Source of the DNA: Acetobacteroides hydrogenigenes | Lineage (GTDB): Bacteria > Bacteroidota > Bacteroidia > Bacteroidales > ZOR0009 | Direction of reading: 5' to 3' | Length of the DNA stretch: 64,000 nt | Assembly (NCBI RefSeq): GCF_004340205.1 | Contig: NZ_SLWB01000002.1 | Location: forward strand, 1 to 64,000 | Shown here: positions 405-27,559 of the stretch, piece after piece | Numbering within the stretch: the stretch's first letter is position 1 | How the letters are laid out: every line of letters starts with the position of its first letter | The notes under the pieces: model-generated | The model's input: only the letters and a program-made list of their open reading frames with translations | Told to the model about the DNA's origin: nothing | The model's database searches: none | Translations under genes and position numbers: made by a program

Positions 405-441
405 GAGAGGGGGGATCTTCTCTTTTAGGTGTCATAGAGGT
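405..441 (+). promoter_or_regulatory. G-rich leader motif upstream of the ECF sigma gene
   Basis: A run GAGAGGGGGGATCTTCTC is followed by TTTTAGGTGTCATAGAGG. Closely similar blocks occur at 7619-7662 and 7844-7879, ahead of two other genes of the same locus. Shared placement suggests a common regulatory site or RNA leader; the mechanism is inferred only. Confidence 0.4.
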
Positions 442-491
442 GAATTGGAGGTAAACCGATTATTGATACTTTTGGGATTCAAACGAACTAA

Positions 492-1061: not shown

Positions 1062-1073
1062 ACCGAAGCAGAG

Positions 1074-4048: not shown

Positions 4049-4091
4049 GGAATACTTTGCATCTTGTTCTAAATTCAGATTTAAATTCGGC

Positions 4092-4099
4092 TACCTTTG
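4092..4099 (+). promoter_or_regulatory. -7 promoter box for the DUF3142-like lipoprotein gene
   Basis: TACCTTTG matches TAnnTTTG exactly and lies about 27 bp upstream of the ATG pair at 4126/4129. It supports the short start rather than the longer frame beginning at 4009. Confidence 0.55.
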
Positions 4100-4125
4100 C
4101 CTTACAGTTAGTAGAATTCGGGATA

Positions 4126-12518: not shown

Positions 12519-12881
12519 AACCACATCTAATCGTTTAAAGTTTTGAAGCCTATAACAGAAGTAGCATGCAGCATACTACGAGTAGTATACAACCCAACCC
12601 GAAAACACCCCATCACGGGAGCTCTGATTTGGGGCATCGATGCGCTGCCCCTCGAAGCGTTGGCGCTCCCAGCACCCCCGTTATACGCCACCTGATCGAC
12701 CTGTTGATAACTTTTTTTGCAAATCCTTTGTAGGTTAAATTACGTTATTTATTTTAGGAATCGATACGAGATGCTCTTAGCCAGCACTCTGACGCTCTTT
12801 GAAAGATCAACACTTGCTTGCTCTTTACGGGATGGACATTGCTTCCCTCCCTTTCAAATCATTTTTTTAATCATACTTCCC
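12519..12881. other. Intergenic region between the Spy-like gene and the 42-bp array
   Basis: I see no gene. The region should contain the minus-strand promoter of the Spy-like gene, but no exact TAnnTTTG box is evident. It becomes AT-rich near 12700-12770. Confidence 0.5.
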
Positions 12882-13197
12882 CTATTGGGGTCGCTTCCTA
12901 CTAAGTACGGAAGGTGTTTTAGGTTCCGATTAGTGCTTCCGTAGCAGTACGGAAGGTGTTTGGGGTTCCGATTAGCGCTTCCGCAGTAGTACGGAAGGTG
13001 TTTTAGGTTCCGATTAGCGCTTCCGCAGTAGTACGGAAGGTGTTTTAGGTTCCGATTAGCGCTTCCGTAGTAGTACGGAAGGTGTTTGGGGTTCCGATTA
13101 GCGCTTCCGCAGTAGTACGGAAGGTGTTTGGGGTTTCGATTAGCGCTTCCGCAGTAGTACGGAAGGTGTTTGGGGTTTCGATTAGCGCTTCCGTACC
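12882..13197 (+). repeat. Tandem array of seven 42-bp units upstream of a DUF6261 gene
   Basis: Seven units start at 12904, 12946, 12988, 13030, 13072, 13114 and 13156; a degenerate partial unit precedes them (12882-12903). Each begins AGTACGGAAGGTGTTT and ends CGCTTCCG(C/T)AG. At every junction CTTCCGTA pairs with TACGGAAG around a 4-nt loop (GTAG or GCAG). This gives a 20-nt hairpin every 42 nt separated by about 22 nt. Units differ at few positions (TTAG/GGGG, TTCC/TTTC, C/T). No open frame crosses the array convincingly. Confidence 0.9.
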
Positions 13198-13307
13198 TAG
13201 AACAACCAACCTAAAGGGCAAACAGAAGGTCGATCTTAAAAGATGAAGATGTTGGACAAGAGGTTCTGTAGCTTATAACCTATTATCAACAACCAAAAAA
13301 TTGTCTT

Positions 13308-14036
13308 ATGAAAAGATTAGGTCTTAGTAAGTTTAGCGTTACCGATTCAGGTAGCATGGCAACTGTAGTGGAAGAAGAAGTGACCAATGCCAACCTTGTA
13401 GAGGCCAAGGAGTCGACCGAGTTTAAGGAGGTGGTTGCCGACCACGTAGAGTATCAGGAGAGCTTAGTACGGGTGAGCAAGAGCCAGAACACCGAGGTAA
13501 AAGTTGCCTCGGACAAGAATCTGGATGATGCCTGGGTGGGCATCCGGCAGATGGTGTGGGGGCTCACCTACTCGCCCGATCCGACGGTGGCGCAGAAGGC
13601 CCACCGCTTCTACGCCCTGCTCGACACCTACGGTGCCGGCGTGGAGGTGCTATCGGCCACCGAGGAGAGCGAGAAGATTGATGCTATTCTGGTGAAGCTC
13701 CTCGAGCCAGCCAACCAGCAGCTGGCGGTAGACCTAGGCGTTAAACCCTTTGTCGATCACCTGTCGGCCTGCGCCGAAACCTTCCGCCGCGACTGGGGCA
13801 ACCTGGAAGCCGATAAGGAGGCCTTCCGCAACAGCACCTCGGCCTCCAACAGCCGCCGTAAGCTCGAGGCCAGCATCGTACGCTTCTTCGGTCTCGTGAC
13901 CTACAGCGCCCAGTACGCCCCCGCCAAGCGCGAGGAGTGGGCCAAGCTCGAGAGCGCCATCTACAGCCGCTACCTCACCATCCGCCAGAAGTACACCGAA
14001 CCCAAGAAGAAGGACGACACCACCCCTACCAAGTAG
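13308..14036 (+). CDS. DUF6261-family protein (paralogue A)
   Basis: A 242-residue, probably cytoplasmic, helical protein with no signal peptide or membrane segment. The first 80 residues are acidic (VVEEEV, VEAKESTEFKEVV). A helical core follows (LLDTYG near 105; FVDHLSACAETFRRDW), and the tail is basic and low-complexity (PKKKDDTTPTK). It aligns with the protein at 26810-27559, for example at LLDTYG/LLETYG and the C-terminal helix, and I recognise both as DUF6261, a Bacteroidota family of unknown function. The start is 110 bp after the 42-bp hairpin array, as in the other locus. G/C-rich codon choice suggests good expression. Confidence 0.7.
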   Translation: MKRLGLSKFSVTDSGSMATVVEEEVTNANLVEAKESTEFKEVVADHVEYQESLVRVSKSQNTEVKVASDKNLDDAWVGIRQMVWGLTYSPDPTVAQKAHRFYALLDTYGAGVEVLSATEESEKIDAILVKLLEPANQQLAVDLGVKPFVDHLSACAETFRRDWGNLEADKEAFRNSTSASNSRRKLEASIVRFFGLVTYSAQYAPAKREEWAKLESAIYSRYLTIRQKYTEPKKKDDTTPTK

Positions 14037-14055
14037 CAGGTAGGTAAACCTATAC

Positions 14056-14092
14056 GGGCAGCCTGCGCAGTAACTGGTGTGGGCTGTTTTTT
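14056..14092 (+). terminator. Intrinsic terminator after DUF6261 gene A
   Basis: CAGCC and GGCTG pair and are followed by six T. Confidence 0.6.
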
Positions 14093-14172
14093 ACAGTTTC
14101 CACAGACAGGATTTTTGGCCTCCTGTCAACCGTAAACTCAAACATTAATTTGAAACGAAAAACCGAATTCCT

Positions 14173-14448
14173 ATGAAAGATACATACAATAAATCAATTC
14201 AACTCCAATGCATAACATGCGGAGATACTAATTTCGAGTTCAATGAAGACAAATCATGGATAAAATGCAACCGTTGTGGAAAAGAATATCTGGGAGGTTA
14301 TAATGAACTTGTTGAATTAAATCAAGAGAACATTAATCAGGAATTAGAAGCCACTAAGGAACAAATAGCCAAAGATTTAAAAGAGGATATTACCAAAATG
14401 TTCAAAGATGCATTCAAAGGTAATAGGAATATTAAATTTAAAGAATAA
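14173..14448 (+). CDS. Small zinc-ribbon protein
   Basis: A 91-residue protein with a zinc ribbon at about 13-36 (CITCG ... CNRCGKEY, two CxxC pairs) and a charged amphipathic helical tail (QENINQELEATKEQIAKDLKED). Its stop overlaps the start of the next gene by one base, so the two are translationally coupled. Base composition is much more AT-rich than the neighbours, which suggests recent acquisition. Function unknown; a regulatory or phage-defence accessory role is only a guess. Confidence 0.65.
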   Translation: MKDTYNKSIQLQCITCGDTNFEFNEDKSWIKCNRCGKEYLGGYNELVELNQENINQELEATKEQIAKDLKEDITKMFKDAFKGNRNIKFKE

Positions 14449-14885
14449 TGGACACTCTCGCAATTACAATATCATCAGCAGCATTAGCCTTTTCAATCTT
14501 CACATATTTGAAACATGACAAGAAGATTAAACAACAATCTTCTCTCTTAAATAAATATCACTTGGAGAAAATTGAAAAGGAAAAAGAAGAAGAAAAAAAA
14601 GCAATTATTGAGGCTAATGTTATATCTGGACAAAACGGTTCAAGAATTGTAAAAGTATATAATAAAGGGAAAAGTATTGCAAAAAACCTAAATGTGAAAA
14701 TTCCCCAAAATGATAGTTATCACATTTTCATTAATCCTTGTCCTATAGATGTTCGACCTCAAAATGGAATCGACATTAGATTAGGAGCCTTAACTGAAAA
14801 TCATCCCGATAAAATTGAAATTGAATTTGAATGGAGCGATGATTACAGTAAACACAACAATGGAAAACAAATGATTCAAATTTGA
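14448..14885 (+). CDS. Single-pass membrane protein paired with the zinc-ribbon protein
   Basis: A 145-residue protein with an N-terminal transmembrane helix (about 4-22, AITISSAALAFSIFTYL), a strongly charged coiled-coil-like stretch (about 24-57, KIEKEKEEEKKA) and a C-terminal beta-rich domain (SRIVKVYNKGKSIAKNLNV), possibly Ig-like. AT-rich like its partner. The one-base overlap argues for a two-component unit. No family recognised. Confidence 0.65.
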   Translation: MDTLAITISSAALAFSIFTYLKHDKKIKQQSSLLNKYHLEKIEKEKEEEKKAIIEANVISGQNGSRIVKVYNKGKSIAKNLNVKIPQNDSYHIFINPCPIDVRPQNGIDIRLGALTENHPDKIEIEFEWSDDYSKHNNGKQMIQI

Positions 14886-15260
14886 TAATGCAATAAACAC
14901 TTTATTGAAACAAAACCGTGTCTGTCCTAATCTATCCTAGACAGGCTATAACCTGCACCTAATTACAAACAGCCCGCACGAAAAGTAAGGGCTGTTTGTA
15001 ATTGGTTACTCCCGTCAGAACCTAAGCCCCAAAAGAGATACATTCTAGGAGACCTCACCCAAATTCCACGAACAGGTACCGTAACATTTTACTTTCCATT
15101 ACCATTTCACGTTTTTTAGCATTAACCTTTCGGCTGACAATCAGCAAAAGTTACTTCGAGGTTAGCCGCTTACATCGGCCTCCCTTATTTCGCGCTGCAG
15201 CAAGATGGCCTACTTTTACACCCGATAGGACAATTACTAGCTGATATAATCCGATAAAAA
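14886..15260. other. Intergenic region with a long palindrome
   Basis: No gene is visible. It contains the 15-bp perfect stem at 14961-15003 and a weaker GACAG/CTGTC hairpin near 14920-14945. The cupin gene follows. Confidence 0.5.
14961..15003. terminator. Long perfect hairpin, probable terminator
   Basis: AATTACAAACAGCCC pairs perfectly with GGGCTGTTTGTAATT across a 13-nt loop. It is palindromic, so it could act on both strands, although the T tract lies inside the stem. Confidence 0.55.
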
Positions 15261-15710
15261 ATGAAGACAGTTGAAAAAGTAAAAGAAGGGGCCAACTTTA
15301 CGGCAACCTCCATTGGTAGCCTCAATGACCTTGGCGAGTTTAAGTACCTACACCCTGCAGGAATCGAAGTTCCCGGAAAAGTATTTGTGGGCGATGCACT
15401 GCAGTGCACCGGTACCGAAGCTTCGTTTCAGGTAATGCCCGTAGGTCAAGGTGTAGCATTTCTACATACCCATAAGGAGAATGAGGAGCTGTACGTAGTG
15501 CTCAAAGGTAGCGGCGAGTATCAGGTCGATGGCACTATCTTTCCAATTGCCGAAGGAAGCCTGGTAAGAGTTTCGCCTCAAGGAAAACGATCGTGGCGAA
15601 ATACCGGAACAGAACCTATGGTAATGATGGTTGTTCAAAGCAAGCAGGGCTCCCTCAAAAACCTAGGCATTGTTGATGGTGCCAGAGTCGACGAAGAGGT
15701 AAAGTGGTAA
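15261..15710 (+). CDS. Cupin-domain protein
   Basis: A 149-residue single-domain cupin. Motif 1 is visible as LHTHKENEELYVVLKGSGEY (about residues 71-90) with the HxH and E ligands. Motif 2 (SPQGKRSWRNTG, about 112-123) lacks the usual histidine, so metal binding may be altered or lost. Cytoplasmic; substrate unknown. It converges with an HxlR-type regulator gene, but regulation by it is speculation. Confidence 0.8.
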   Translation: MKTVEKVKEGANFTATSIGSLNDLGEFKYLHPAGIEVPGKVFVGDALQCTGTEASFQVMPVGQGVAFLHTHKENEELYVVLKGSGEYQVDGTIFPIAEGSLVRVSPQGKRSWRNTGTEPMVMMVVQSKQGSLKNLGIVDGARVDEEVKW

Positions 15711-15730
15711 CCCTACAGCATCCGACCAAC

Positions 15731-15775
15731 AAGGCATTCTTCTCCGTTTTTAAAACATGAAGGATGCCTTTTTAT
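15731..15775 (+). terminator. Intrinsic terminator after the cupin gene
   Basis: AAGGCAT pairs with ATGCCTT, followed by TTTTATT. Confidence 0.6.
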
Positions 15776-15795
15776 TCCATATTCCGAGCAGCGCT

Positions 15796-16146
15796 CTACT
15801 CTCGTCCCTCATAGGCGTTTCTACTTCTGATAATCTCCCCTCTATTCTCACGAGCCCATTCAACCATGTTCCTTATCAAGGGGATTAGGCTCTCGCCCAT
15901 CGTCGTTAGCTGGTACTCTACCCGAGGAGGCACCTCGGGGTACACCTTCCTTTTCACAAGCCCATCGGCCTCCAACGTACGCAGCGTAACGGCTAGCATC
16001 CTTTGCGAGATATCCGGGATGCTCTTCCCAATAGCGCTAAAGCGCAGCACCCTGTGCCGATGAAGCTGAACCATCACCAGTATCGACCACTTATCGCCAA
16101 ACCTATTTAGAATATCCCTTATCGGACAAGCATCGTCAGGATTCAT
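15796..16146 (-). CDS. HxlR-family winged-helix transcriptional regulator
   Basis: A 116-residue DNA-binding protein of the HxlR (MarR-like) type. The N-terminal CPIRDILNRFGDKWSILVM is diagnostic, followed by the helix-turn-helix (ISQRMLAVTLRTLEADGLVKR) and wing (PPRVEYQLTTMGESL). The cysteine near residue 8 is the redox or electrophile-sensing position in several family members. The ATG at 16146 is chosen because the longer frame adds 26 residues with no family match. Targets unknown. Confidence 0.85.
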   Translation of the reverse strand: MNPDDACPIRDILNRFGDKWSILVMVQLHRHRVLRFSAIGKSIPDISQRMLAVTLRTLEADGLVKRKVYPEVPPRVEYQLTTMGESLIPLIRNMVEWARENRGEIIRSRNAYEGRE

Positions 16147-16222
16147 CGTGAGTTGTTTATTATCTGTGCTGCAAGATCGCACAAAAATATGAATAGAAGA
16201 TGACAGGTTAGAGCCTCCACCC

Positions 16223-16256
16223 AAAAAAGAAGGCAGCCCTTCTCAGAGCCGCCTTT
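16223..16256 (-). terminator. Intrinsic terminator after tRNA-Gln
   Basis: On the minus strand AAGGC ... GCCTT form a stem followed by CTTTTTT. Confidence 0.55.
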
Positions 16257-16257
16257 G

Positions 16258-16330
16258 TTGTCCTATCAGGGGTCGAACCTGAACTCTTCTGATCCAGAGT
16301 CAGACGTGTTGCCAATTACACCATAGGACA
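16258..16330 (-). tRNA. tRNA-Gln (CTG anticodon)
   Basis: Acceptor arms TGTCCTA/TAGGACA pair perfectly. The anticodon stem TCTGA/TCAGA encloses the loop CTCTGGA, giving anticodon CTG. The T arm GGTTCGAACC is present. CCA is not encoded. A -7 box lies at 16343-16350. Confidence 0.95.
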
Positions 16331-16342
16331 GGATTGATTGTG

Positions 16343-16350
16343 CAAAGGTA
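16343..16350 (-). promoter_or_regulatory. -7 promoter box for tRNA-Gln
   Basis: The minus strand reads TACCTTTG, exact to TAnnTTTG, 13 bp upstream of the tRNA. Confidence 0.65.
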
Positions 16351-16459
16351 GCAGAGGCAGCTCCCCGATGTTCCCATCCACAAGAAAAATTTAGAGTAAA
16401 GCTTGGTGGTTTGCATTTATTAGCTAACTTAGGAGGGTCATAACCTAATACTAACAAGT

Positions 16460-16759
16460 ATGAGTACAATTCAAGTAAACAACGGCAAGGCCGAGATCCA
16501 TAGGGATGGCATTGTTGTAGGCTCATTTGGACACGGGGAGATTATCTGCGCCGAGTTCAACCACGATCACTCGTTAATCCTATGCGTAACCGATCAGGGA
16601 AAAGTTGAGCTACGCAAGGAAAATGGCTCGGTGCACAAGAGCGTTGCCACCAATGCCGTATACGCCACCTTCGAGGGGCACGACATTTCGGTTACCACCA
16701 TGAAGGGCAAGGTGGAGCTCCGCAAGGAAAACGGAAGCTTAATAAAGGTTGTTGGCTAG
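16460..16759 (+). CDS. Small beta-repeat protein of unknown function
   Basis: A 99-residue beta-rich cytoplasmic protein with two copies of GKVELRKENGS (about 51-61 and 84-94) and related strands between them, a blade-like repeat. Its length and composition suggest a compact beta-sandwich or a partial propeller. A good purine stretch, AGGAGG, lies about 25 bp upstream of the start. A terminator follows at 16781. I recognise no named family. Confidence 0.65.
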   Translation: MSTIQVNNGKAEIHRDGIVVGSFGHGEIICAEFNHDHSLILCVTDQGKVELRKENGSVHKSVATNAVYATFEGHDISVTTMKGKVELRKENGSLIKVVG

Positions 16760-16780
16760 TAAATTTTGAGCGAATAAATG

Positions 16781-16820
16781 AAAGAGGCGAATCGCAGATG
16801 ATTCGCCTCTTTCTATTTTT
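16781..16820. terminator. Intrinsic terminator between the beta-repeat gene and glnS
   Basis: AAAGAGGCGAATC pairs with GATTCGCCTCTTT (13 bp) and is followed by a T run. It lies between convergent genes and may serve both. Confidence 0.85.
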
Positions 16821-16832
16821 TTTGTGTGATGA

Positions 16833-18527
16833 TTACTTTCCGGCAATCTTGGCCCACGAGTCCTTTAGCGTAACCGTGCGGTTGAAGATGATCTTCTCGT
16901 CGGTGCTATCGGAATCTACGCAGAAGTAGCCGATGCGCTCGAACTGGAACTTATCACCTGGCTTCTTGGTTGTCAAGTCGGGCTCAACCAGCGCCTCAAC
17001 CACCTTAAGCGATTCTGGGTTTAGGAAGTCCTTGTAGTCCTCGTCCTCGGTAAGGTTGTCCATATCTTGGCGGGTGAAGAGGCGGTCGTATAGGCGAACG
17101 TCTACTTTCTTGGCGTGCTCTGCCGATACCCAGTGGATGGTTCCCTGAACCTTACGGCCATCTGGCGAGTTACCTCCGCGCGATGCAGGATCGTAGGTAG
17201 CGTGAACCTCTATGATGTTACCATCGACATCCTTAACCACATCGGTAGCCTTAATGAAGTAGGCGTAGCGCAGGCGAACCTCCTGACCGATGGCCAAACG
17301 GAAGTACTTCTTAGGAGCCACCTCCATAAAGTCGTCGCGCTCGATGAAGATTTCCCTTCCAAAAGGAATCATGCGGGTGCCAGCCTCAGCAGCTTCTGGG
17401 TTGTTCACAGCCTCCAACTCCTCGGTTTGACCCTCGGGGTAGTTGGTGATAACCACCTTCAGCGGATTGAGCACCGCCATACGACGCTCGGCGCGCTTAT
17501 TCAAATCCTCGCGAACAAAAAACTCGAGCAGCGAGAAGTCGATAACGTTATCGCGCTTGGCAACACCAATACGCTCGGCAAAGTTGCGGATAGCCTCGGG
17601 GGTGTAACCACGACGGCGGATACCGCAGATGGTAGGCATGCGAGGATCGTCCCATCCTGATACGTAATTATTCTTAACCAACTCCAGCAGCTTACGCTTG
17701 CTCATAACCGTATAGGTAAGGTTCAAGCGGGCAAACTCGTACTGCTTCGATGGGAATATTTCGAGCGTATCAACAAACCAATCGTAAAGCGGACGATGCA
17801 CGTCGAACTCGAGCGTACATATCGAGTGGGTAATATTTTCGATAGAGTCGCACTGGCCATGAGCCCAGTCGTACATCGGGTAGATGCACCACTTATCGCC
17901 AGTACGATGGTGGTGTGTATGGATGATACGGTATAGGATTGGGTCGCGGAAGAACATATTGGTATGCGCCATATCAATCTTGGCTCGAAGCACCTTAGCG
18001 CCATTCTCGAACTCACCATTCTTCATGCGCTCGAATAGGTCGAGGTTCTCCTCAACGCTACGGTTGCGGTAGGGGCTTTCCTTTCCAGGTACGGTTACCG
18101 TTCCACGACCAAGGCGAATTTCCTCCTGGGTTTGGTCGTCGACGTAAGCCTTTCCCTTTTTGATGAGCTCGCAGGCCCAAAGATAGAGCTGCTCGAAGTA
18201 GTCCGACGCGTAGAACTCGTTAGCCCACTCGAAACCAAGCCACTTTACATCCTCCTTAATCGAATCAACGTACTCCACATCCTCCTTAACGGGGTTGGTA
18301 TCGTCGAAACGAAGGTTGGTTTGCCCGCCATACTTCTTTGCCAAACCAAAGTTAAGGCAGATAGACTTGGCATGACCAATATGTAGGTAACCGTTAGGCT
18401 CTGGAGGGAAACGGGTTAAAACTCGTCCACCATGCTTACCGCTCTTAATATCCTCTTCGATAATCTCTTCAAGAAAGTTCAGCGTCCTTTCTTCGGCACC
18501 TGAAACTTCTGGTTTATTGTCGCTCAT
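16833..18527 (-). CDS. glnS: Glutamine--tRNA ligase
   Basis: The 564-residue class I synthetase charges tRNA-Gln with glutamine. The HIGH motif is in [14 protein letters not shown] (about residue 41-54) and the KMSKS loop is VMSKRKL. The C-terminal anticodon-binding beta barrels are present, so the length is typical. The ATG at 18527 ([10 protein letters not shown]) is used because the longer frame reaches into the promoter: a TATATTTG box lies at 18575-18582. It stands next to tRNA-Gln, a small neighbourhood coincidence. Confidence 0.96.
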
Positions 18528-18574
18528 ACGTTTGTAATTTCTGATATCTAAATCGGCCTTACCGATTGAAACTA

Positions 18575-18582
18575 CAAATATA
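18575..18582 (-). promoter_or_regulatory. -7 promoter box for glnS
   Basis: The minus strand reads TATATTTG, exact to TAnnTTTG, about 48 bp upstream of the ATG. Confidence 0.6.
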
Positions 18583-18680
18583 TACAAAGTGCCGCTTTAC
18601 TGCTGTGCTTATCTTTAGAAATCATTCCCCTAAACCAATATAATGCCCTTCCTGCTTCTGAAAATGATGACCGAATCCAT

Positions 18681-18688
18681 TACCTTTG
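18681..18688 (+). promoter_or_regulatory. -7 promoter box for folB
   Basis: TACCTTTG, exact to TAnnTTTG, 17 bp before the ATG, which implies a very short leader. Confidence 0.6.
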
Positions 18689-18705
18689 CATAAAAATCGA
18701 CTGAA

Positions 18706-19059
18706 ATGCACGGAATAATTGAGATAGAGAACATGGAGTTCTACGCCTATCACGGCTGCTTCGAGGAAGAGGCCATCGTTGGCAACAAGTTTTTGGTAAA
18801 CCTTACCATTGAGATGAACCCCGATGTACCCGCCCAAACCGATAGCATCAACGATGCGGTAAACTACCAGCTGGCCTACTTCATCGTAAAGCGCGAAATG
18901 GCCATCCGCTCGCACCTACTCGAGCATGTTGGCGGGAGAATCGTAGATGCCCTATACAAGGAGCTAACCGGCATTCAAAAGGTAGCCGTAAAGGTTTCGA
19001 AGATGAATCCACCTATGGGAGGTCCTATCCAAAAGGTAAGCGTAACGGTAGTTAGATAG
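18706..19059 (+). CDS. folB: Dihydroneopterin aldolase
   Basis: A 117-residue enzyme of folate synthesis that converts 7,8-dihydroneopterin to 6-hydroxymethyl-dihydropterin and glycolaldehyde. Conserved segments are YAYHGCFEEE (about 13-22), NYQLAYFIVK, and LLEHVGGRIVDAL with the active-site glutamate region. Length is normal. A Cys-rich CWC gene follows 8 bp later, probably in the same transcript. Confidence 0.92.
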   Translation: MHGIIEIENMEFYAYHGCFEEEAIVGNKFLVNLTIEMNPDVPAQTDSINDAVNYQLAYFIVKREMAIRSHLLEHVGGRIVDALYKELTGIQKVAVKVSKMNPPMGGPIQKVSVTVVR

Positions 19060-19067
19060 ATACTTTG

Positions 19068-19283
19068 ATGAGCACAGAAAATAAGCAACCCAAACAAGCC
19101 ATCTGCCCCAAATGCGGCGCCGAGTTTACCTGTAGCACGGCTACCGGCAGCTGCTGGTGCATGGAATTTAAGCTATCCGCAGAAGCACTTAACCAACTGA
19201 GGATAAAGTATGCCACATGCCTTTGCCCTGCCTGCCTATCGCAATTTGCCGAAAAAGATGGCCAAAGGTCTTGCAGCATTTAA
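19068..19283 (+). CDS. Cysteine-rich CWC-type small protein
   Basis: A 71-residue protein with the pattern CPKCGAEFTC ... CWCMEF ... CLCPACL, matching the Cys_rich_CWC family, likely zinc-binding. The ATG at 19068 is used rather than TTG three bases earlier. It lies 8 bp after folB. Function unknown; in other genomes the family commonly appears as a small accessory gene. Confidence 0.8.
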   Translation: MSTENKQPKQAICPKCGAEFTCSTATGSCWCMEFKLSAEALNQLRIKYATCLCPACLSQFAEKDGQRSCSI

Positions 19284-19291
19284 TTTTTTTC

Positions 19292-19299
19292 TATCTTTG
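19292..19299 (+). promoter_or_regulatory. -7 promoter box for tRNA-Cys
   Basis: TATCTTTG, exact to TAnnTTTG, 12 bp upstream of the tRNA. Confidence 0.65.
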
Positions 19300-19311
19300 C
19301 ACTCGCAAAAG

Positions 19312-19382
19312 GGTTTCGTGGCCGAGTGGCTAGGCAACGGTCTGCAAAACCGTGTACAGCGGTTCGAATCCGCTCGAAACCT
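19312..19382 (+). tRNA. tRNA-Cys (GCA anticodon)
   Basis: Acceptor arms GGTTTCG/CGAAACC pair. The anticodon stem ACGGT/ACCGT encloses CTGCAAA, giving anticodon GCA. The T-loop TTCGAATC is present. CCA is not encoded. Confidence 0.95.
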
Positions 19383-19384
19383 CA

Positions 19385-19417
19385 AAAAAGGCTGAATGAT
19401 TCATTCGGCCTTTTTTT
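19385..19417 (+). terminator. Intrinsic terminator after tRNA-Cys
   Basis: A stem AAAGGC-TGAATGA / TCATTC-GGCCTTT is followed by a T run. Confidence 0.7.
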
Positions 19418-19463
19418 GTACGATACAAAAGCATATCATTTAACTTAAAAAATGACTCTGTAT

Positions 19464-20264
19464 CTACTTCAGTTTAATACATTGTTTTAAGTGACTATGC
19501 TTAATAATTGCATTAGGAGCATATTCTTTAATTAAAGATTGAATCATTATCTCTTGAGATACAGTAGCAGAAGGACAAAGTGTTACTACCAATTTATCCA
19601 AAGCAGATTTTTTAATTCCTAGAAAATAATCATCAAAAGGTAATTCTATGTTTCTTTTTAAACTATCTACAACCATACTTGAAAATAAAGGATTAGAAAT
19701 ATCTATATCATACAATTTTGGAATTGCCGTCAAAACAAACCTACTCTCATCTTGGAAAGCCCATCTTTTATGTTTGTATTTTCCAACTTCTCCAAATGAG
19801 ATCATAATAGCATCCCCCCTTCTTTGAACTACATTTTCAGTTCTGGTAATGATATCATCAACGTATTCTATTGGACGATAAAAAAAGTTGGAATCATTAA
19901 CGAATGATATAAATATATATTGCTTGTTAAACATCTCCTCAAATGAGAGAATCGATTTTACTGTTTCATCTACAACTGATATTCTATCTGAACTTTTTAT
20001 ATCATACTCTTCAAAAAAATTATTTTCCAATGAAATCCTTACACCACTCTTACCATCTGCATAAAGTTTCCACAAAGGAATACTCTCTTCATCTGATTCT
20101 GTCCAACATGACACAAAAACATATTTACTTAGATTAATACCATTTGAAACAGTATTACCTTCTTCTAAATCATCTACCCTATCCAATCTATTAAAACGAA
20201 TATTCCTATTTCTAAGAATTAAAGCCAAATTCTCTATTGTTGTGTAATGATGTATCATTCCCAT
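19464..20264 (-). CDS. DUF2971-family protein
   Basis: A 266-residue cytoplasmic protein with the DUF2971 pattern: HYTTIENLALILRNRNIRFNR at the start, then VSCWTESDEES, LWKLYADGKSGVRIS and the later FQDESRFVL. The family's function is not established; members recur in accessory and defence islands. This gene is markedly AT-rich and stands alone between tRNA-Cys and metK, which suggests horizontal acquisition beside a tRNA. Confidence 0.85.
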   Translation of the reverse strand: MGMIHHYTTIENLALILRNRNIRFNRLDRVDDLEEGNTVSNGINLSKYVFVSCWTESDEESIPLWKLYADGKSGVRISLENNFFEEYDIKSSDRISVVDETVKSILSFEEMFNKQYIFISFVNDSNFFYRPIEYVDDIITRTENVVQRRGDAIMISFGEVGKYKHKRWAFQDESRFVLTAIPKLYDIDISNPLFSSMVVDSLKRNIELPFDDYFLGIKKSALDKLVVTLCPSATVSQEIMIQSLIKEYAPNAIIKHSHLKQCIKLK

Positions 20265-20355
20265 TGCAAGTAAGATCTATTTAACACTAATTAGATAGTC
20301 CAAATCTAATATATATAATCAATATTGTATAATGTAAAAAATGACCTCTGTATAG

Positions 20356-20392
20356 AAATAAAAGAAGGGCGCCAATTTATTTGACACCCTTC
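20356..20392 (-). terminator. Intrinsic terminator after metK
   Basis: On the minus strand AAGGG ... CCCTT form an extended stem followed by CTTTTATTT. Confidence 0.6.
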
Positions 20393-20414
20393 CTCATATT
20401 GATTATGGAATCGT

Positions 20415-21671
20415 CTACAAACCAAACTCTTTCTTAATAGCATCAACGCTGTCAAGCTTTTCCCAGGTGAAGAACTCCACCTCCTTCTCAGCTTGGCAGT
20501 TGATTGGGCCAACAAGTACATTCTTCTTGTAGCACTTGTGCCCGAAGTGTCCGTAAGCAGCGGTTTCTTCGAAAATTGGGTTCTTCAACCCGAACTTCTC
20601 GATGATGCGAGCTGGACGAAGGTCGAATAGTTTATCAACCTTTTCGCTGATCTGAGCATCGGTTAGGTTAACCTTTGCAGTTCCGTAGGTATTTACATAG
20701 ATACTTACAGGACGAGCAACGCCAATAGCGTAAGCCACCTGAACAAGTATCTCTTCGGCAACACCTGCAGCAACAAGGTTCTTGGCAATGTAGCGAGCAG
20801 CGTAAGCAGCCGAGCGGTCTACCTTCGACGAGTCTTTACCCGAGAATGCGCCACCACCGTGAGCACCCTTGCCACCGTAGGTATCTACGATGATCTTACG
20901 TCCGGTAAGACCGGTATCTCCGTGAGGACCTCCAATAACAAACTTTCCGGTTGGATTTACGTGAAGGATGATATCGTCAGTGAAGAGCTTTTGGGTACGT
21001 TCTGGAAGAAGCGCCTTAACACGTGGAATAAGGATGCTCTTAACATCAGCCTTAATCTTTGCCAACATCACCTCATCCGCATCAAACTCGTCGTGCTGAG
21101 TAGAAACAACGATAGTGTGGATGCGCTCTGGATGGTTATTTTCGTTATACTCGATGGTAACCTGCGACTTAGCATCTGGGCGGAGGTAGGTCATTTCCTT
21201 ACCCTCGCGGCGGATCTTTGCAAGCTCCTGAAGCAACATGTGCGAGATGGTTAGCGATAGCGGCATATACTCATCGGTTTCGCTACATGCGTAACCAAAC
21301 ATAAGACCTTGGTCGCCTGCACCCTGTTCGCCTGCACCCTTTTCCTCTTGGGTTACACCACGGTTAATGTCAGGCGATTGCTCGTGAATGGTAGAGATAA
21401 CACCACAAGAGTCTCCATCGAATTTATACTCAGCCTTGTTGTAACCAATTCGGTTGATAACCTTACGCGCAACTTCCTGAACGTCTACGTAAGCCTCAGA
21501 GCGTACCTCGCCGCTGATAACCACCAAACCGGTAGTAACGAGCGTTTCGCAAGCCACCTTCGAGTTAGGGTCTTGGCTTAGGAACTGATCGAGAATTGCA
21601 TCGGAAATTTGATCGGCTACCTTGTCTGGATGTCCTTCGGATACAGACTCAGATGTAAATAAGTATCCCAT
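20415..21671 (-). CDS. metK: S-adenosylmethionine synthase
   Basis: A 418-residue enzyme that makes S-adenosylmethionine from ATP and methionine. Signature motifs are [12 protein letters not shown] (about 115-126) and [16 protein letters not shown] (about 272-287). The N-terminal [20 protein letters not shown] is intact. Length is slightly longer than the enterobacterial enzyme, as in other Bacteroidota. A TACCTTTG box lies at 21793-21800. Confidence 0.97.
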
Positions 21672-21792
21672 TTCTTGTTAAGCTGTTTTTGATTAAACAA
21701 TAATGAGAAAGGATTTTAGGATGGACAGAAATACTAGGTTTTAGCATTTTTTTCTGTGGTTGCAAGCATCCAAATCTTTCCACATAAGCGCA

Positions 21793-21800
21793 CAAAGGTA
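21793..21800 (-). promoter_or_regulatory. -7 promoter box for metK
   Basis: The minus strand reads TACCTTTG, about 120 bp upstream of the start codon, leaving a long leader. No SAM riboswitch was recognised in it. Confidence 0.5.
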
Positions 21801-21957
21801 GCAATTGTTTTATTTTTTGCTCTATCTCTTGCGTATATTATCTATTTTCTTCAATTGGCTTATAAATTATTATGATAGCCACCGGAAGTGTTTGGGTTCT
21901 TTAGCTGGTAGAATCCGAAAAACGGTTCCTCATAACTGTTTTTTAATCGATAGCGAT

Positions 21958-21965
21958 TATCTTTG
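21958..21965 (+). promoter_or_regulatory. -7 promoter box for the DUF5074-like lipoprotein gene
   Basis: TATCTTTG, exact to TAnnTTTG, 31 bp before the ATG at 21997. It lies inside the longer open frame that begins at 21805, which argues against that earlier start. Confidence 0.55.
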
Positions 21966-21996
21966 CTTCTACTATCAACTCAGATATACGAATATA

Positions 21997-23301
21997 ATGC
22001 TTAGATTCTTTCGAATAGGTTTGGCTTTAGCCATTGCGACGATTGCTATTGCTGGCGCTACATCGTGCTCGAAAAGCGAGTTCGAAGGGCCAATCCTAAT
22101 TAATGATCCCGTTAACTTGAAGCGGACCTTTACCATTAATCCAGGCGAATCGGTTACGCTCACCTCCAAATTCGATGTTCCTGAAAGCCTGAACTACGAA
22201 TGGAGCATCGACGGTGCTAAAACATCGGTCTCCGAAGGTTCATACGTTTTTACCACCAACGAATCTGGCAGCTACATAATCACCCAACGAGTTTTTAACG
22301 GCTACGGAGAGGCATTTATAGACTACTACGTGGTTGTTCGTGGCACCTACGACAAGGGTTCCTTTTTGCTGAACAACAACACAACCGAAGCATCGCTTAC
22401 CTACATCAGCAAGGATCTTACTGCTGTTGACGAAAATGCCTATGCAACCGCCAATCCAGGAAAAACGCTAGGCGCTAAAATAGTATCAGCCCAAGCCTAC
22501 CTTGGGAAATTCTATATCATCTCCCAAACTGAAGGGCTAATCGTGCTGAACTCCATCACCCTAAAGGAGCTTGGCAGAATTGCGCTTCCCGCCAAGGCTA
22601 ACTACTTTTTGGGCATCGACCGAACAACAGCCCTGCTGAGTACCGATGACGGCATATACCGAATCAACCTTAACCCGCTTTCGGTTGGCGAAAAGATTCC
22701 CGGATTTGGAGGTCGCGCTGGCATGATGGCCAATACCCCTAACTACGTGCTGGCACTTACGCTCGAAAACGGAGTTGTTGCAGTAGACAAGAGCAGGCTA
22801 ATCGTATCGAAGGTGCTAAGAGTGGGCCGATCGGGGTTAGCTGCCGACATAAGCGGCAACGTGTGGACCTCGCACAAGGATACGCTCTTTAAGATTAGCC
22901 CATCGCTATACGTATCGAGCTATAGAATGCCCACTGGTATAACGGTAACCTCGTCGTGGAATCCGTGGAACGAAGGTTCGCTTTGCATATCCACCTCCGA
23001 AAATGCCCTATTCTTTATCCGCGCCAACAGCGACGGAAGGCCATCGAGAGAAATATACAAGGTGAACATTAACACCATTAGCAGTAGCAGCCCTGTGCTT
23101 AGCACGCTTCCCGAAGGGCGAGCCTTTAGCGGAATAGGGCTGCGCATTGACAACGAAAATAACATTGTAGCCTCGACGGTTAGCACCATCGGCGACAATC
23201 CAGAAGTTGTTGTATACCGCGCAGCCGATGCTTCGCTGGTAAAAACAATACCAACAGCTTCGACGGATACCCGATCGATGCTCTTTAATAGCGTAAAGTA
23301 G
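21997..23301 (+). CDS. Beta-propeller lipoprotein, DUF5074-like
   Basis: A 434-residue lipoprotein with a signal peptide ending in the lipobox ATSC. An Ig/PKD-like segment follows (about 35-115, LNYEWSIDG), then a repetitive beta region from GSFLLNNN onward (about 120-430) that resembles the YncE/DUF5074 propellers often found with outer-membrane import systems. It is probably surface- or periplasm-exposed. It is followed after 1 bp by the 23303 gene, forming an operon that runs on to the radical SAM gene. Confidence 0.65.
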   Translation: MLRFFRIGLALAIATIAIAGATSCSKSEFEGPILINDPVNLKRTFTINPGESVTLTSKFDVPESLNYEWSIDGAKTSVSEGSYVFTTNESGSYIITQRVFNGYGEAFIDYYVVVRGTYDKGSFLLNNNTTEASLTYISKDLTAVDENAYATANPGKTLGAKIVSAQAYLGKFYIISQTEGLIVLNSITLKELGRIALPAKANYFLGIDRTTALLSTDDGIYRINLNPLSVGEKIPGFGGRAGMMANTPNYVLALTLENGVVAVDKSRLIVSKVLRVGRSGLAADISGNVWTSHKDTLFKISPSLYVSSYRMPTGITVTSSWNPWNEGSLCISTSENALFFIRANSDGRPSREIYKVNINTISSSSPVLSTLPEGRAFSGIGLRIDNENNIVASTVSTIGDNPEVVVYRAADASLVKTIPTASTDTRSMLFNSVK

Positions 23302-23302
23302 A

Positions 23303-23902
23303 ATGAGAAAGGTTGCAGCACACTACGTATACTGTGGCGAAGACCAACCCGTAAAGTTTGGCATCGTTACGCTCGACGGCAACACGGTGATTTCCGTTAG
23401 CCCATCGGCAGACAACCTTGTAGAGGCTGCTCAAACCGAGTTCTACCCTGGGGTGCTCATCCCTGCCATCGTCAACGCTGTTATGGCCACCGGCAGCAGC
23501 GTTTGGTTTCCGAAGGATGACGATGAGGTAAACAGCGTGTTAACCATAGAGGAAGAGCTGCCGCTATTTGCCGTTATTGATTCCGAGGCATTAGCTCGAC
23601 TATCGGCTACTGCACTGGCATCCATCTACGAAAATAAAATAGCAATAGCGCTTGCCCATGCCACCTCCAACCATCCTACCATCCTCTTTAGGATGATGAT
23701 GCAGCTAACCGAGAAGCTTCCGGATGTTCCATTCCACGAAATTGTGAGGATGGCTACAGCCAACGGCGCCCAAGCGCTTCAGCAAAAACAGCGAGGAGCT
23801 ATTGCTGCCGGATATCAACCCGGCATTTACCATATATCGGGATTCTGCTTTGCCCGAAAGAGTATAGACCAACACTCGACAATCGAGATTATTGCTAGCT
23901 AA
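23303..23902 (+). CDS. Shortened amidohydrolase-like protein lacking the catalytic barrel core
   Basis: A 199-residue protein whose ends resemble amidohydrolase-superfamily deaminases such as aminodeoxyfutalosine deaminase. The N-terminal YVYCGEDQPVKFGIVTLDGN and FYPGVLIPAIVNA correspond to the small beta domain and the strand before the metal site. The C-terminal EIVRMATANGAQALQ and GAIAAGYQPGIYHI match the family end. The expected HxH metal motif after VNA is absent (VMATGSS instead), and the middle of the barrel is missing, so it is unlikely to be a normal hydrolase. It starts 1 bp after the upstream stop. Confidence 0.6.
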   Translation: MRKVAAHYVYCGEDQPVKFGIVTLDGNTVISVSPSADNLVEAAQTEFYPGVLIPAIVNAVMATGSSVWFPKDDDEVNSVLTIEEELPLFAVIDSEALARLSATALASIYENKIAIALAHATSNHPTILFRMMMQLTEKLPDVPFHEIVRMATANGAQALQQKQRGAIAAGYQPGIYHISGFCFARKSIDQHSTIEIIAS

Positions 23903-23917
23903 AACCACACATTAAAC

Positions 23918-24694
23918 ATGGCAACGTTTCTATTCGATAAGATCATATTTGGACCCATAAAGAGCCGCCGCTTAGGCAGCTCGCTGGGCATAAACCTGCT
24001 GCCCAACGACAGCAAGCTCTGCTCGTTCGACTGCATCTACTGCGAGTGCGGATGGAATACGCCCGGCGCTCGTAAGGTGTTTCATCCCCGCGAGGAGGTA
24101 AAGGCCCGCCTAAGGGAGAAGCTCGAGGAGCTGGGCAGCCAGAACAGCCTTCCCGACGTAATCACCTTTGCCGGCAATGGTGAGCCCACCATGCACCCCG
24201 AGTTCGAGGGCATCATCGACGATACCATAGCGCTGCGCGATGCGCTTAGCCCTAAAACCAAGATTGCCGTTCTATCGAACGCTACCCTTATCGGGCGCGA
24301 AAAGGTATTCAACGCCCTAAAGAAGGTTGACCAAAACATTCTGAAGCTTGACTCAGCCTTTGAGGAAACCGTTAGGCTCCTCAACAACCCGCAGGGCGAG
24401 TACTCCACCGCCGTGCTGGTGGAAAGGCTCAAGAAGTTCGAAGGAAATCTGACCATACAAACGCTCTTCGTGCGCGGCAGCTACAACGGGCAAACGGTTG
24501 ATAACACAACGCCTGCTGAGCTGGATGCGTGGATGAAGCTGCTGGCCGAGATAAAGCCCAAGGAGCTGATGGTGTACACCATTGCCCGCGACACCCCTGC
24601 CCCCGACCTGGTGAAGGTGCCGGAGAAGGAGCTTCGCGCAATTGCCGAAACCGTAAAGCAAACGCTGGGGATACCCGTACAGGTATCCGCATAA
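23918..24694 (+). CDS. Radical SAM protein (COG0731-like)
   Basis: A 258-residue radical S-adenosylmethionine enzyme with the iron-sulfur motif CSFDCIYC (CxxxCxxC, about residues 32-39). It has a GNGEPTMHPEF motif (about 87-97) typical of the COG0731 group, for which substrates are mostly unknown. The preceding FGPIKSRRLGSSLGINLLP is a hallmark of this subfamily. It lies 15 bp after the preceding gene and 11 bp before the next, so it is in the same operon. Confidence 0.85.
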   Translation: MATFLFDKIIFGPIKSRRLGSSLGINLLPNDSKLCSFDCIYCECGWNTPGARKVFHPREEVKARLREKLEELGSQNSLPDVITFAGNGEPTMHPEFEGIIDDTIALRDALSPKTKIAVLSNATLIGREKVFNALKKVDQNILKLDSAFEETVRLLNNPQGEYSTAVLVERLKKFEGNLTIQTLFVRGSYNGQTVDNTTPAELDAWMKLLAEIKPKELMVYTIARDTPAPDLVKVPEKELRAIAETVKQTLGIPVQVSA

Positions 24695-24705
24695 CATAAA
24701 AAGCT

Positions 24706-25686
24706 ATGAAGGTACTGGTAGCACCGCTCAACTGGGGAGTGGGTCACGCCACCCGCTGCATCCCCATCATCCATTTCCTGCTGAATAGAGGAGACGAGGT
24801 GCATATTGCCGGCGACGGCCAGTCGTTGGAGCTGCTCCAGAGCTACTTCCCGAAGCTGACGTTCCATGAGCTCCCCCCGCTGAATATTACCTACACCAAG
24901 CGCCTACCTCTATATACAGCCTTCCCCCGAATGGCCGCCCGCATGTTCTTTCACTATTTTAGGGATCGAAGGGCCATACGCCGGCTGATGAAGCAGGAGC
25001 ATTTCGACTGCATCTTCTCCGACAACCGCTACGGCATCCGCAGCGCAGAGGCCAAGTCGTACCTCATCACCCACCAGCTACGGGTATGCTTTGGCTGCAA
25101 GAATAGCTGGCTCGAACGCCTTTCGGGGCGCATCATCCGGCGGCTGATAGCCTCCTTCAACGCCTGCCTGGTGCCCGACTACGACAGCGACAACAACCTA
25201 GCCGGAAGAATCGACAAGCCCGTAGATGGGCTCAAGGTGCTCTACACCGGGCCACAATCGCGCTTCCCGCTCGACGAGCCCGACATACCGCTCCCCCGCT
25301 ACGATTTGCTGATTATCCTATCGGGCCCCGAGCCCCAGCGCACCAAGTTCGAGCAGCTGGTAGCCTCGCTGGCGGCGAGCAGCATCAAGCGCATCATGCT
25401 GGTTAGGGGTACCAAGACGCCGCCGGAAGCAGCGCTCCCCGCCAACCTCAGCACGCTCGACTTTGTTGGCGACCTCATGCTGCAAACGCTCATCCACAAC
25501 TCCAAGGCCATCATCGCCCGAGCCGGATACAGCACCATAATGGACCTCAACGCCCTGAGCCGTGGCGCCGTGCTGGTGGCCACCCCACACCAGCCCGAGC
25601 AGGAGTACCTGGCCACCTGGCTCGACGGTAAGCGCGGCTTCGTCCGCGCCGAGCAGGACGAGAAGAGCCTGCGGGAGTGGTTCTAG
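24706..25686 (+). CDS. MurG-like glycosyltransferase (GT28 type)
   Basis: A 326-residue GT-B glycosyltransferase. The N-terminal LNWGVGHATRCIPI is the acceptor-side glycine motif. The C-terminal ARAGYSTIMDL and PHQPEQEYLATWL are the nucleotide-sugar motifs of the MurG/GT28 group. It is probably membrane-associated through basic and hydrophobic patches. The substrate cannot be told; it is not murG itself, since the neighbours are not division genes and the length is short. Confidence 0.8.
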   Translation: MKVLVAPLNWGVGHATRCIPIIHFLLNRGDEVHIAGDGQSLELLQSYFPKLTFHELPPLNITYTKRLPLYTAFPRMAARMFFHYFRDRRAIRRLMKQEHFDCIFSDNRYGIRSAEAKSYLITHQLRVCFGCKNSWLERLSGRIIRRLIASFNACLVPDYDSDNNLAGRIDKPVDGLKVLYTGPQSRFPLDEPDIPLPRYDLLIILSGPEPQRTKFEQLVASLAASSIKRIMLVRGTKTPPEAALPANLSTLDFVGDLMLQTLIHNSKAIIARAGYSTIMDLNALSRGAVLVATPHQPEQEYLATWLDGKRGFVRAEQDEKSLREWF

Positions 25687-25815
25687 CCAGACGCCGCCTA
25701 TACACAAGCAACAACACCTCCCGCCATGAGCCCCGTACGACGGACAACCGCAAACCGGCATAGAAGACCCTCAACCATGCGGGTTTATCCAACCCCATAA
25801 AGCAGCAGTATCCCG

Positions 25816-26463
25816 ATGAAAACCATCTACTTCCTAAGCGGGCTGGGAGCCGACGAGCGCGCGTTCGTGAGCCTTCAGCAAAACGGCATCACCGGAAAGC
25901 CCATTAAATGGATATCGCCCAAAAAGCACGAGAGCCTGCGGGAGTACTGCGCGCGGCTCACCAATCAGCTCGATGCCGATAGCGGCATCGTCCTCGTGGG
26001 CGTTTCGTTTGGGGGGATTGTTGCCCAGGAGATATCGAAGCTGGTAAAGGTCGATAAGGTCATCATCCTATCGAGCATTAAATCGGTGCGGGAGCTCAGC
26101 TGGCGGCTGAGCGTTGTGCGTGCCCTTGGCCTCTACCGGCTGGCGCCATCGGGGCTGCTGAAGTGGGCCAACCTGCTGGCCCGCAGCTACAGCTTTGGCA
26201 CCCAGACAAAGGCCGAGTCGGAGCTGCTCGGCCAGATCATTAAGGATACCGATAGCTCCTTCATGAAGTGGGCCATCGGCGAGCTGATGCGGTGGAAGGG
26301 CGGTGCGCCCAACCCGGCTGTTGTCCACATCCACGGCGATAAGGACCGCATCTTCCCCATCGGCCGGATTCGTAACGCCATTACCATTGCCGGCGGAAGC
26401 CACTTCATGATCGTAAACCGCGCCAAGGAGATCTCCGAGCTTATCGAAAAGGAGATCGGCTAG
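25816..26463 (+). CDS. Alpha/beta hydrolase
   Basis: A 215-residue alpha/beta-hydrolase fold protein. The nucleophile elbow is GVSFGG (about residue 62-67), the acid is in HGDKDRIFP (about 175-183), and the histidine is in GGSHFMI. The lid region is short. The substrate is unknown. It starts 129 bp after the glycosyltransferase and ends 18 bp before the 41-bp hairpin array. Confidence 0.8.
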   Translation: MKTIYFLSGLGADERAFVSLQQNGITGKPIKWISPKKHESLREYCARLTNQLDADSGIVLVGVSFGGIVAQEISKLVKVDKVIILSSIKSVRELSWRLSVVRALGLYRLAPSGLLKWANLLARSYSFGTQTKAESELLGQIIKDTDSSFMKWAIGELMRWKGGAPNPAVVHIHGDKDRIFPIGRIRNAITIAGGSHFMIVNRAKEISELIEKEIG

Positions 26464-26481
26464 CGGAAGCAGCCGAAGCCC

Positions 26482-26687
26482 TGTCTAACACTAGACAGAG
26501 TCCATGCGCCCTGCAGGAAGGCTGTCTAATCCTAGACAAGGGCTATGCACACCTCAGGAGGCTTGTCTAACGCTAGACGGCGGCCATGCAGCGCTGCAGG
26601 AAGGTTGTCTAGCCCTAGACCGAGCCCATGCAGCCTGCAGGAAGGCTGCCTAAATCTAGGTAAAGGCTACGCAGCCATCCGAAAGCC
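26482..26687 (+). repeat. Tandem array of five 41-42-bp hairpin units upstream of the second DUF6261 gene
   Basis: Units start at 26482, 26523, 26564, 26606 and 26647. Each opens with TGTCTA-NNNN-TAGAC(A), a stem with a 4-nt loop whose loop varies (ACAC, ATCC, ACGC, GCCC, AATC), and continues with a CATGCAGCCTGCAGGAAGG-like tail. In the fifth unit both arms change (TGCCTA ... TAGGTA), preserving one pair through a compensatory change and another as G-T. The array starts just after the hydrolase stop. It shares unit length and design, but not sequence, with the array at 12904-13197. Confidence 0.88.
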
Positions 26688-26809
26688 CTACCGGCGCTGG
26701 AGTTGTAAAAAAAAGCAGCCCTGCCCCCTATTTTTTTTCAGATCTGCATCTTGCATTGCATCTATTTTACTATATTTATCAATCATTAACCATTTAACCC
26801 GTTCTAAAT

Positions 26810-27559
26810 ATGAAAAAAGTAAGGTTTAACAGCTCTCCTGTACCATTCTTAACCTACATGGAGTTCTACCAGTTTGTAGCATCGCAGGCTAACCGCATTC
26901 ACGATTTAGGCGATACCGTACTCACCGATACCGAGCTCAAGCAGCTGGTTGCCGTGCTAATTGCGCTTTCGGGCGATTTCAACAAGCTGCTGCTGCGCGT
27001 TCAGAAGAGCCTGATCACCGACGATATCACCAAGAAGGACAAGGTGCGCGACTTTAGCATCTCGGCGCTACGCGCGGCCATTAGGAATGCCCACTACTCT
27101 ACGGACGAAGAGGTGGTGCGCTGCTCGGTTGCCCTAACCGTCCTGCTCGAAACCTACGGGGATATCGCTCGCGAGGATCTTGACACCGAAAGCGCCACCA
27201 TCGACAAGCTGGTGGAAGAGCTCGAGGGCCCAACCTACAAGCCCATGGTGGATAAGCTGCTCATTGGCGCCAACGTGGTACGCCTAAAAACCGACAACGA
27301 CACGTTTAAGAAGCTGTACAACCAGCGCTCGAACGAGGAGGTTGCCAAGGATGCCACCGACACGCGCCAGCTCCGCAACAAGGTAAACGAGCAGTACCAG
27401 CTGCTGTGCGACTACGTGCTGCTAAAGGCCCGCATGAAGGACGAGGAGCAGTACAACCAGTCGGTGCTCATCATCAACCAGGTTCGTAGCCACTACAGCG
27501 CCCTAAAGGCCCAGAGCAAGGCCGCCCAAAAGAACGACGAAAGCACTACCAAAAAGTAA
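26810..27559 (+). CDS. DUF6261-family protein (paralogue B)
   Basis: A 249-residue helical, probably cytoplasmic protein without signal or membrane segments. Its core (AIRNAHYSTDEEVVRCSVALTVLLETYG split around residue 100-130, then LRNKVNEQYQLLCDYVLLKA) aligns with the protein at 13308-14036. The tail is lysine/threonine-rich (KNDESTTKK). I place it in DUF6261, function unknown. The start lies 122 bp after the end of a hairpin array, repeating the arrangement of the first locus. A terminator follows. Confidence 0.72.
   Translation: MKKVRFNSSPVPFLTYMEFYQFVASQANRIHDLGDTVLTDTELKQLVAVLIALSGDFNKLLLRVQKSLITDDITKKDKVRDFSISALRAAIRNAHYSTDEEVVRCSVALTVLLETYGDIAREDLDTESATIDKLVEELEGPTYKPMVDKLLIGANVVRLKTDNDTFKKLYNQRSNEEVAKDATDTRQLRNKVNEQYQLLCDYVLLKARMKDEEQYNQSVLIINQVRSHYSALKAQSKAAQKNDESTTKK

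Follow-up and report, generated by a model that had tools for sequence, protein, structure and literature searches.

Acetobacteroides hydrogenigenes contig NZ_SLWB01000002.1 carries, within its positions 1 to 64,000 (hereafter the window), two genes for DUF6261 proteins, each preceded by a tandem array of 41-42 bp units. DUF6261 is a Pfam family that occurs in several orders of Bacteroidota and has no assigned function, and the question that this locus raises is whether each such protein belongs with a repeat of its own. We found a very tight association between DUF6261 genes and these arrays, and consider the pairing probably functional. In what we take to be its best reading, to which we give even chances, the protein would act in trans and recognise dyads that are helically phased in duplex DNA.

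The two window proteins (Table 1) both score above the curated cut-off of 27 bits for DUF6261 (PF19775) and are 24% identical to each other (E 2e-8). The original prediction, of two paralogous genes each preceded by an array of the same 41-42 bp unit length but of unrelated sequence, was borne out, and despite their unrelated sequences both units hold a dyad. The distances to the start codon, described there as nearly the same, are only roughly so (114 bp for array 1 and 156 bp for array 2). Array 2 is far more degenerate than array 1, as its 74% against 95% match indicates. In agreement with the lack of visible nuclease and transposase motifs noted there, neither protein matches such a family in Pfam, PHROGs, PADLOC or NCBIfam under the thresholds applied, and neither matches a replication initiator family in Pfam.

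Table 1. Features of the two DUF6261 loci in the window (TRF, Tandem Repeats Finder).
Feature	Position	Strand	Description
Promoter-like site	12727..12757	+	upstream of array 1; TTTG, 19 bp, TATTTTAG; one mismatch in -7 box
Array 1	12904..13193	+	TRF: period 42, 6.9 copies, 95% match; dyad ACGGAAG ... CTTCCGT
DUF6261 protein 1	13308..14036	+	242 aa; Pfam DUF6261, E 6.6e-14, 52.5 bits
Array 2	26475..26653	+	TRF: period 41, ~4.2 copies, 74% match; dyad CTGTCTA ... TAGACAG
DUF6261 protein 2	26810..27559	+	249 aa; Pfam DUF6261, E 1.8e-35, 122.6 bits

This genome (G000; 3.86 Mb, 32 contigs) has 33 DUF6261 genes by profile match, and TRF reported an array with a period of 40-42 bp, or multiples of it, upstream of 27 of them. 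Counting TRF arrays at most 700 bp upstream, the proportions are 27/33 for DUF6261 and 19/591 for other genes (Fisher p 2.5e-29), the latter predicted with a simple codon-score caller in sampled stretches plus the window. At the remaining six loci (L003, L016, L019, L023, L024 and L030) the best self-match lag of the upstream region is 40 or 42 bp, a result obtained for 23/601 control upstream regions of the same genome in a comparison that left out open reading frames (ORFs) shorter than 200 aa. All 33 genes are accordingly preceded by an array, 27 by TRF and six by autocorrelation.

The association was followed into other genomes. DUF6261 was found in six of 41 genomes of relatives searched (G000 included), with 18 copies in G001 and 38 in G002, the two other species of the genus; 73 of the 98 loci in these six genomes have an upstream TRF array (G000 27/33, G001 9/18, G002 30/38, G031 6/7, G004 1/1, G039 0/1). 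A sample of the phylum gave matches in 12 of 395 genomes, 11 of them over the cut-off; L143, below it, was left out. Named loci from GTDB genomes, mostly Chryseobacterium and relatives but also Flavobacterium, Prolixibacteraceae, Aquimarina and others, have an upstream TRF array in 24 of 48 cases, a count that keeps short-ORF records (such as L170, L181, L188, L194, L197 and L201). When nine duplicates and seven short records were removed from the 166 available, 150 distinct usable loci remained, and 133 of them have an array (103 by TRF, 30 by autocorrelation only). These loci span several orders and more than one class. The original prediction had been staked on arrays being commoner upstream of DUF6261 genes than of other genes, and they clearly are. 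An upstream position holds for most loci but not for the Aquimarina-type L191-L193 (two distinct proteins), where the array is directly downstream of the gene; apart from these arrays, a 212-bp unit repeated 3.6 times lies directly downstream of one G001 gene (L093, on C24). The best self-match lag of all 108 TRF arrays is 40-43 bp (40 in 3, 41 in 36, 42 in 66 and 43 in 3), partly by selection, because only periods of 38-45 bp or their multiples were admitted; their median distance to the ATG is 119 bp.

A passive explanation would have neutral minisatellites spread by slippage and gene conversion, with DUF6261 genes merely adjacent. It is unlikely, since arrays at 33/33 loci in one genome and 133/150 in the phylum, across those orders and classes, argue against mere adjacency. 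In its favor, arrays also occur away from DUF6261. We examined a control sample of G000 made up of 40 hand-placed stretches and the window (864 kb, 645 predicted genes); the stretches do not overlap DUF6261 coordinates, and the first 20 were also profile-checked. This sample contains 42 arrays with periods in the 21/42-bp series, of which 40 lie away from DUF6261 genes (orphan arrays), and we rejected the idea that such arrays are exclusive to the family. Period-41/42 arrays are nonetheless not general in the phylum: TRF gave 26 rows of this period in 400 kb of G000 and one in 400 kb of G348, a probable Chryseobacterium with five DUF6261 genes; in G434 and G042, where DUF6261 had no match, it gave none in the 200 kb sampled from each. 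That the sampled parts of these two DUF6261-free genomes are devoid of them is a further point against passive association. No DUF6261 gene was seen beside a 41-bp array of G348 (L208:19089-19301).

Some orphan arrays are related to DUF6261-linked ones, which we call masters, their matching arrays elsewhere being satellites. Eleven of the 40 orphans match a G000 master above the best reversed control (31), nine with scores of 77-354 and two marginally (32 and 33), and three more strongly match a G002 master only (L039, L048:11106 and L258:6898). The unit of window array 1 recurs in G000 at C1:170624 (89%), C5:146516 (84%) and as a fragment at C12:20659, and the repeats of the L017 and L018 families are likewise dispersed. 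G001 has neither a copy of the window array 1 unit nor, in the tree, an ortholog of gene 1; an unoccupied counterpart of window locus 1 was not cleanly identified there, the right flank not being found beside the left. The proposal that each protein has its own repeat thus gains from the units that some G000 arrays share with a DUF6261-linked array, but not from the proteins, which are not basic.

The array units each contain one or two dyads, and the distances from dyad to dyad (426 dyads) have maxima at 20-22 and 40-42 bp. Counting stems of 7 or more pairs in which no more than one pair is mismatched, the arrays contain 198 and shuffled arrays 82; under looser rules the arrays contain 311, shuffled ones 106 and matching lengths of DUF6261 coding sequence 171. 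A period of 41-42 bp with half-steps of about 21 bp corresponds to about four and two turns of B-DNA, which would place the dyads on one face of the duplex, and the period may reflect protein binding on that face. It stays constant across loci while the unit sequence gets replaced, a behavior that also speaks against passive association.

Were the stems formed in RNA or as gene-strand hairpins, G-T mismatches on the gene strand should exceed A-C mismatches. There is no such excess (53 G-T and 58 A-C), which fits dyads of duplex DNA or a mutational origin; other thresholds gave 15/30, 5/12 and 36/46, of which the first is significant (p 0.036) in the direction opposite to that expected of sense RNA and the others are not. 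The "hairpin array" of the original prediction therefore keeps its dyads but not its RNA or sense-strand hairpins, and is better read as a phased-dyad array. Because of this mismatch symmetry, sense-strand RNA hairpins were ranked second. The corresponding RNA system, in which the arrays would be part of transcribed leaders or 3' ends and the protein would bind their RNA hairpins and so control mRNA fate, seems quite improbable, the more so as RNA hairpins give no reason to expect so strict a period of 41-42 bp. Promoter-like sites, sought with the Bacteroidota promoter consensus, give it some support: array 1 lies between such a site (12727) and its gene, and 8 of 50 G000 and G002 loci have one at most 250 bp before the array, where 1.7 are expected. 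None was found before array 2. Sites are also found between array and ATG (6/50, 2.2 expected), so that transcription of most arrays is only a possibility.

Gene and array are inherited together. We compared 105 arrays (3 of the 108 were dropped) in 5460 pairs binned by protein identity, and the fraction of pairs with similar arrays was 0/1419 below 15% identity, 11/2805 at 15-20%, 8/639 at 20-25%, 0/108 at 25-30%, 14/163 at 30-40%, 30/130 at 40-50%, 47/100 at 50-60%, 21/38 at 60-70%, 30/42 at 70-80% and 16/16 at 80% or more; reversed sequences gave two similar pairs overall. Repeat divergence thus tracks protein divergence, as the original prediction had anticipated, a pattern that shows co-inheritance and is in itself no proof of recognition. 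One gene-bearing unit has recently been duplicated to a new place: L014 and L017 are 92.7% identical over 1406 bp, a block of leader, array and gene that extends from 216-225 bp ahead of the array to about 52 bp past the stop codon, beyond a terminator-like hairpin (by eye), with different outer flanks. L014 is likely the new copy, because the L017 site matches that of L111 in G002 on both flanks. Between L017 and L111 the pre-array leader is 94% identical over 154 bp, and the array interior has been replaced with the first unit kept (by eye).

Replacement is also seen at L123, the G002 ortholog of window gene 1, whose array has a different stem around a shared core. Of the G002 satellites of this family, three belong to the new L123 type (87, 86 and 83%) and two to the old one. 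L269 and L279 occupy one shared site, with flanks 89-90% identical; there the array of each species resembles that species' own master (G000, 89%, score 354; G002, 83%, score 287), and the score between the two site-mates is 97. The old type is retained in both species at L271/L270, and older-type units are kept at the array edges of L277 and L278 (by eye). Such fast turnover, with older units left at the edges, would also suit neutral minisatellites.

Comparison of flanks for three families showed that 7/7 G000 satellites examined share their site with a G002 satellite, and hence have not moved since the species split. This stability bears on selfish repeats of the kind described below, where DUF6261 or a genomic Y1 transposase would amplify and disperse the arrays, the gene unit being the master and the satellites non-autonomous. 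A gene beside repeats that are dispersed too, and the L014/L017 duplication, are what such elements would produce, and two of nine G002 satellites (L268 and L277), having no partner among the seven in G000, may be new in G002 or lost in G000. Y1 transposases are present in G000 (3) and G002 (7); one of the G000 matches (C4:204855-205199) is about 1 kb from the DUF6261 locus L006. G001 has no Y1 transposase match, yet nine of its 18 DUF6261 genes have TRF arrays, and with the shared sites and the lack of a transposase or nuclease match in the window proteins this makes selfish repeats rather unlikely. Arrays overall favor gaps between convergent genes (18 of 35 arrays with both neighbors, counting the two DUF6261 arrays of the window; for other gaps longer than 150 bp the figure is 44 of 249), a placement that selfish repeats could also explain. 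A boundary role of satellites between convergent genes was considered and dropped, the excess being in orphans as a whole with only 3 of the 11 matched ones convergent; of the rest five are tandem, two divergent and one at a stretch edge. Satellites sit in front of genes about as often as not.

Among known systems, REP/RAYT (repetitive extragenic palindromes, REP or REPIN, with REP-associated tyrosine transposases, RAYT or TnpA-REP) is one of the closest. Two papers describe a gene flanked by palindromic repeats, an own repeat family for each gene type and dispersed intergenic copies (PMC6006769, PMC3116915), and a GT[AG]G tetranucleotide at the hairpin foot (PMC6006769). DUF6261 resembles this in standing beside palindromic repeats of its own family with dispersed copies; it differs in having no HuH/Y1 transposase match, in its tandem arrays of fixed period, in that the seven G000 satellites compared keep their sites in a second species and in an unchanging period despite replacement of the unit sequence.

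Iteron arrays with a Rep initiator, and operator arrays with an oligomeric repressor, also place phased repeats beside the gene of a presumed binder. DUF6261 shares this layout, but matches no initiator or repressor family, has satellites elsewhere in the chromosome, and comprises in one genome 33 paralogs whose repeats are mostly unrelated to each other. CRISPR likewise has an array beside a dedicated gene; in array 1, by contrast, the whole 42-bp unit repeats, with no unique spacers. DUF6261 does occur in cas9 loci at four of the 48 named loci (L182, L184, L185 and L187; about 1-6700), between cas9 and cas1-cas2 with a separate CRISPR-type array beyond. Pfam confirmed Cas9 domains and Cas1 in L182, L184 and L187 and Cas2 in L182 and L187; for L185 the assignment was made by eye. 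In the cas9 locus L182 the gene after DUF6261 (3885-4478) is a Y1_Tnp (RAYT-like) one; ORFs of similar appearance come after DUF6261 in L185 and L187, that of L187 having no Pfam match. A literature search, with most subscription journals outside its reach, found no paper on DUF6261-linked arrays; among the papers within reach a single one mentions the family, and its title concerns daptomycin resistance in Streptococcus oralis.

AlphaFold2 modelled each window protein as an all-helical structure of ten helices (protein 1, mean predicted local distance difference test score [pLDDT] 86.9 and predicted template modelling score [pTM] 0.54; protein 2, 88.9 and 0.62). The protein 2 model has no Foldseek match with E below 0.001 among solved (PDB) or viral (BFVD) structures. 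VIA-align matched it to generic helix bundles with Z up to 9.4, and we inferred no function from the fold for that reason. One of these bundles, at rank 8, is the accessory protein Avd of diversity-generating retroelements (8ube_D; Z 8.7 over 90 residues), a likeness within the range of unrelated bundles. Sequence search of the PDB with profile A3 gave BibA as best match (1.6e-4, a 61-residue stretch). Invariant or nearly invariant columns include D77, R80, D81, G117, E127, N163, F166, R189, N223 and Y229 (protein 2 numbering).

Such pairing may be a wider theme, because a second family also pairs with arrays, of 21 bp. Two orphan arrays adjoin proteins of about 240 aa with the motif TGHA[KN]N, a family with no match above a Pfam cut-off. 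G000 has five copies (L242-L246), four of them with a 21/42-bp array about 115-225 bp downstream, and the family has matches in 9 of 395 genomes of the phylum sample. Nine loci outside G000 were considered (L331-L339; two short matches, L340 and L341, were excluded), and six have a 21-bp-period array close by, downstream in L332-L335 and upstream in L336 and, as a short array, in L337. A relationship of TGHA[KN]N to DUF6261 was not supported (hhalign probability 3.9%, E 0.011).

We would describe each DUF6261 locus as a two-part unit, a palindromic 41-42 bp tandem array and a gene whose all-helical product has about 245 aa. Each protein would act in trans on arrays of its own family, the master and, in this genus, a few chromosomal satellites, most likely by binding dyads about 21 and 42 bp apart on one duplex face, and would regulate its own gene at the master array. 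Duplex DNA as ligand, autoregulation and a role for the satellites are what we infer from these patterns; of them, duplex binding as the mechanism is a prediction that could go either way.

Several observations weigh against such a trans-acting factor. No DNA-binding fold was matched by the protein 2 model, and the proteins are slightly acidic (median isoelectric point 6.1 over 154 proteins). G001 is the weakest genome, with an array at only 11/18 loci. No good match to a G000 or G002 DUF6261-linked array was found for 26/40 orphan arrays. Two ortholog pairs, both with 77% protein identity, behave differently: L008/L103 keep their array and L027/L123 replace it. Templated correction of quasi-palindromes is another possible source of dyads, and ectopic gene conversion alone could homogenize arrays. 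In family 2 both G002 satellites are closer to the G000 masters than to their own master, L111, as passive association would allow, and family 3 gives no clear signal. Coupling of satellite to master thus appears once, in family 1 (that of window array 1), is contradicted once and is undecided once, and we do not propose concerted change as a general rule.

Two other features of the window were noted. An ordinary SAM-II (S-adenosylmethionine) riboswitch (Rfam RF01726; 21731-21789, minus strand) precedes the gene at 20415-21671, which we take to be metK. Repeats of 7 bp (TGTGATG) lie at 54009-54058; stretches like them are scattered through G000, and G001 has many.

We tentatively suggest a new bacterial chromosomal system of all-helical protein families, in which each paralog may keep its own helically phased satellite-DNA network and the two turn over together; DUF6261 with 41-42 bp arrays and TGHA[KN]N with 21-bp arrays would be its possible families. 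The proposed turnover of master and satellites has a logic comparable to that of eukaryotic satellite DNA and its binding protein. To our knowledge such a network of paralogs and repeats has no bacterial counterpart. If the suggestion is true, one bacterium can carry upwards of 30 paralogs of a protein, each with a short repeat to which it is tied, and some of these repeats lie at several chromosomal sites; DUF6261 would gain a role, and the family would offer an experimental model for the joint change of a protein and its repeat DNA.

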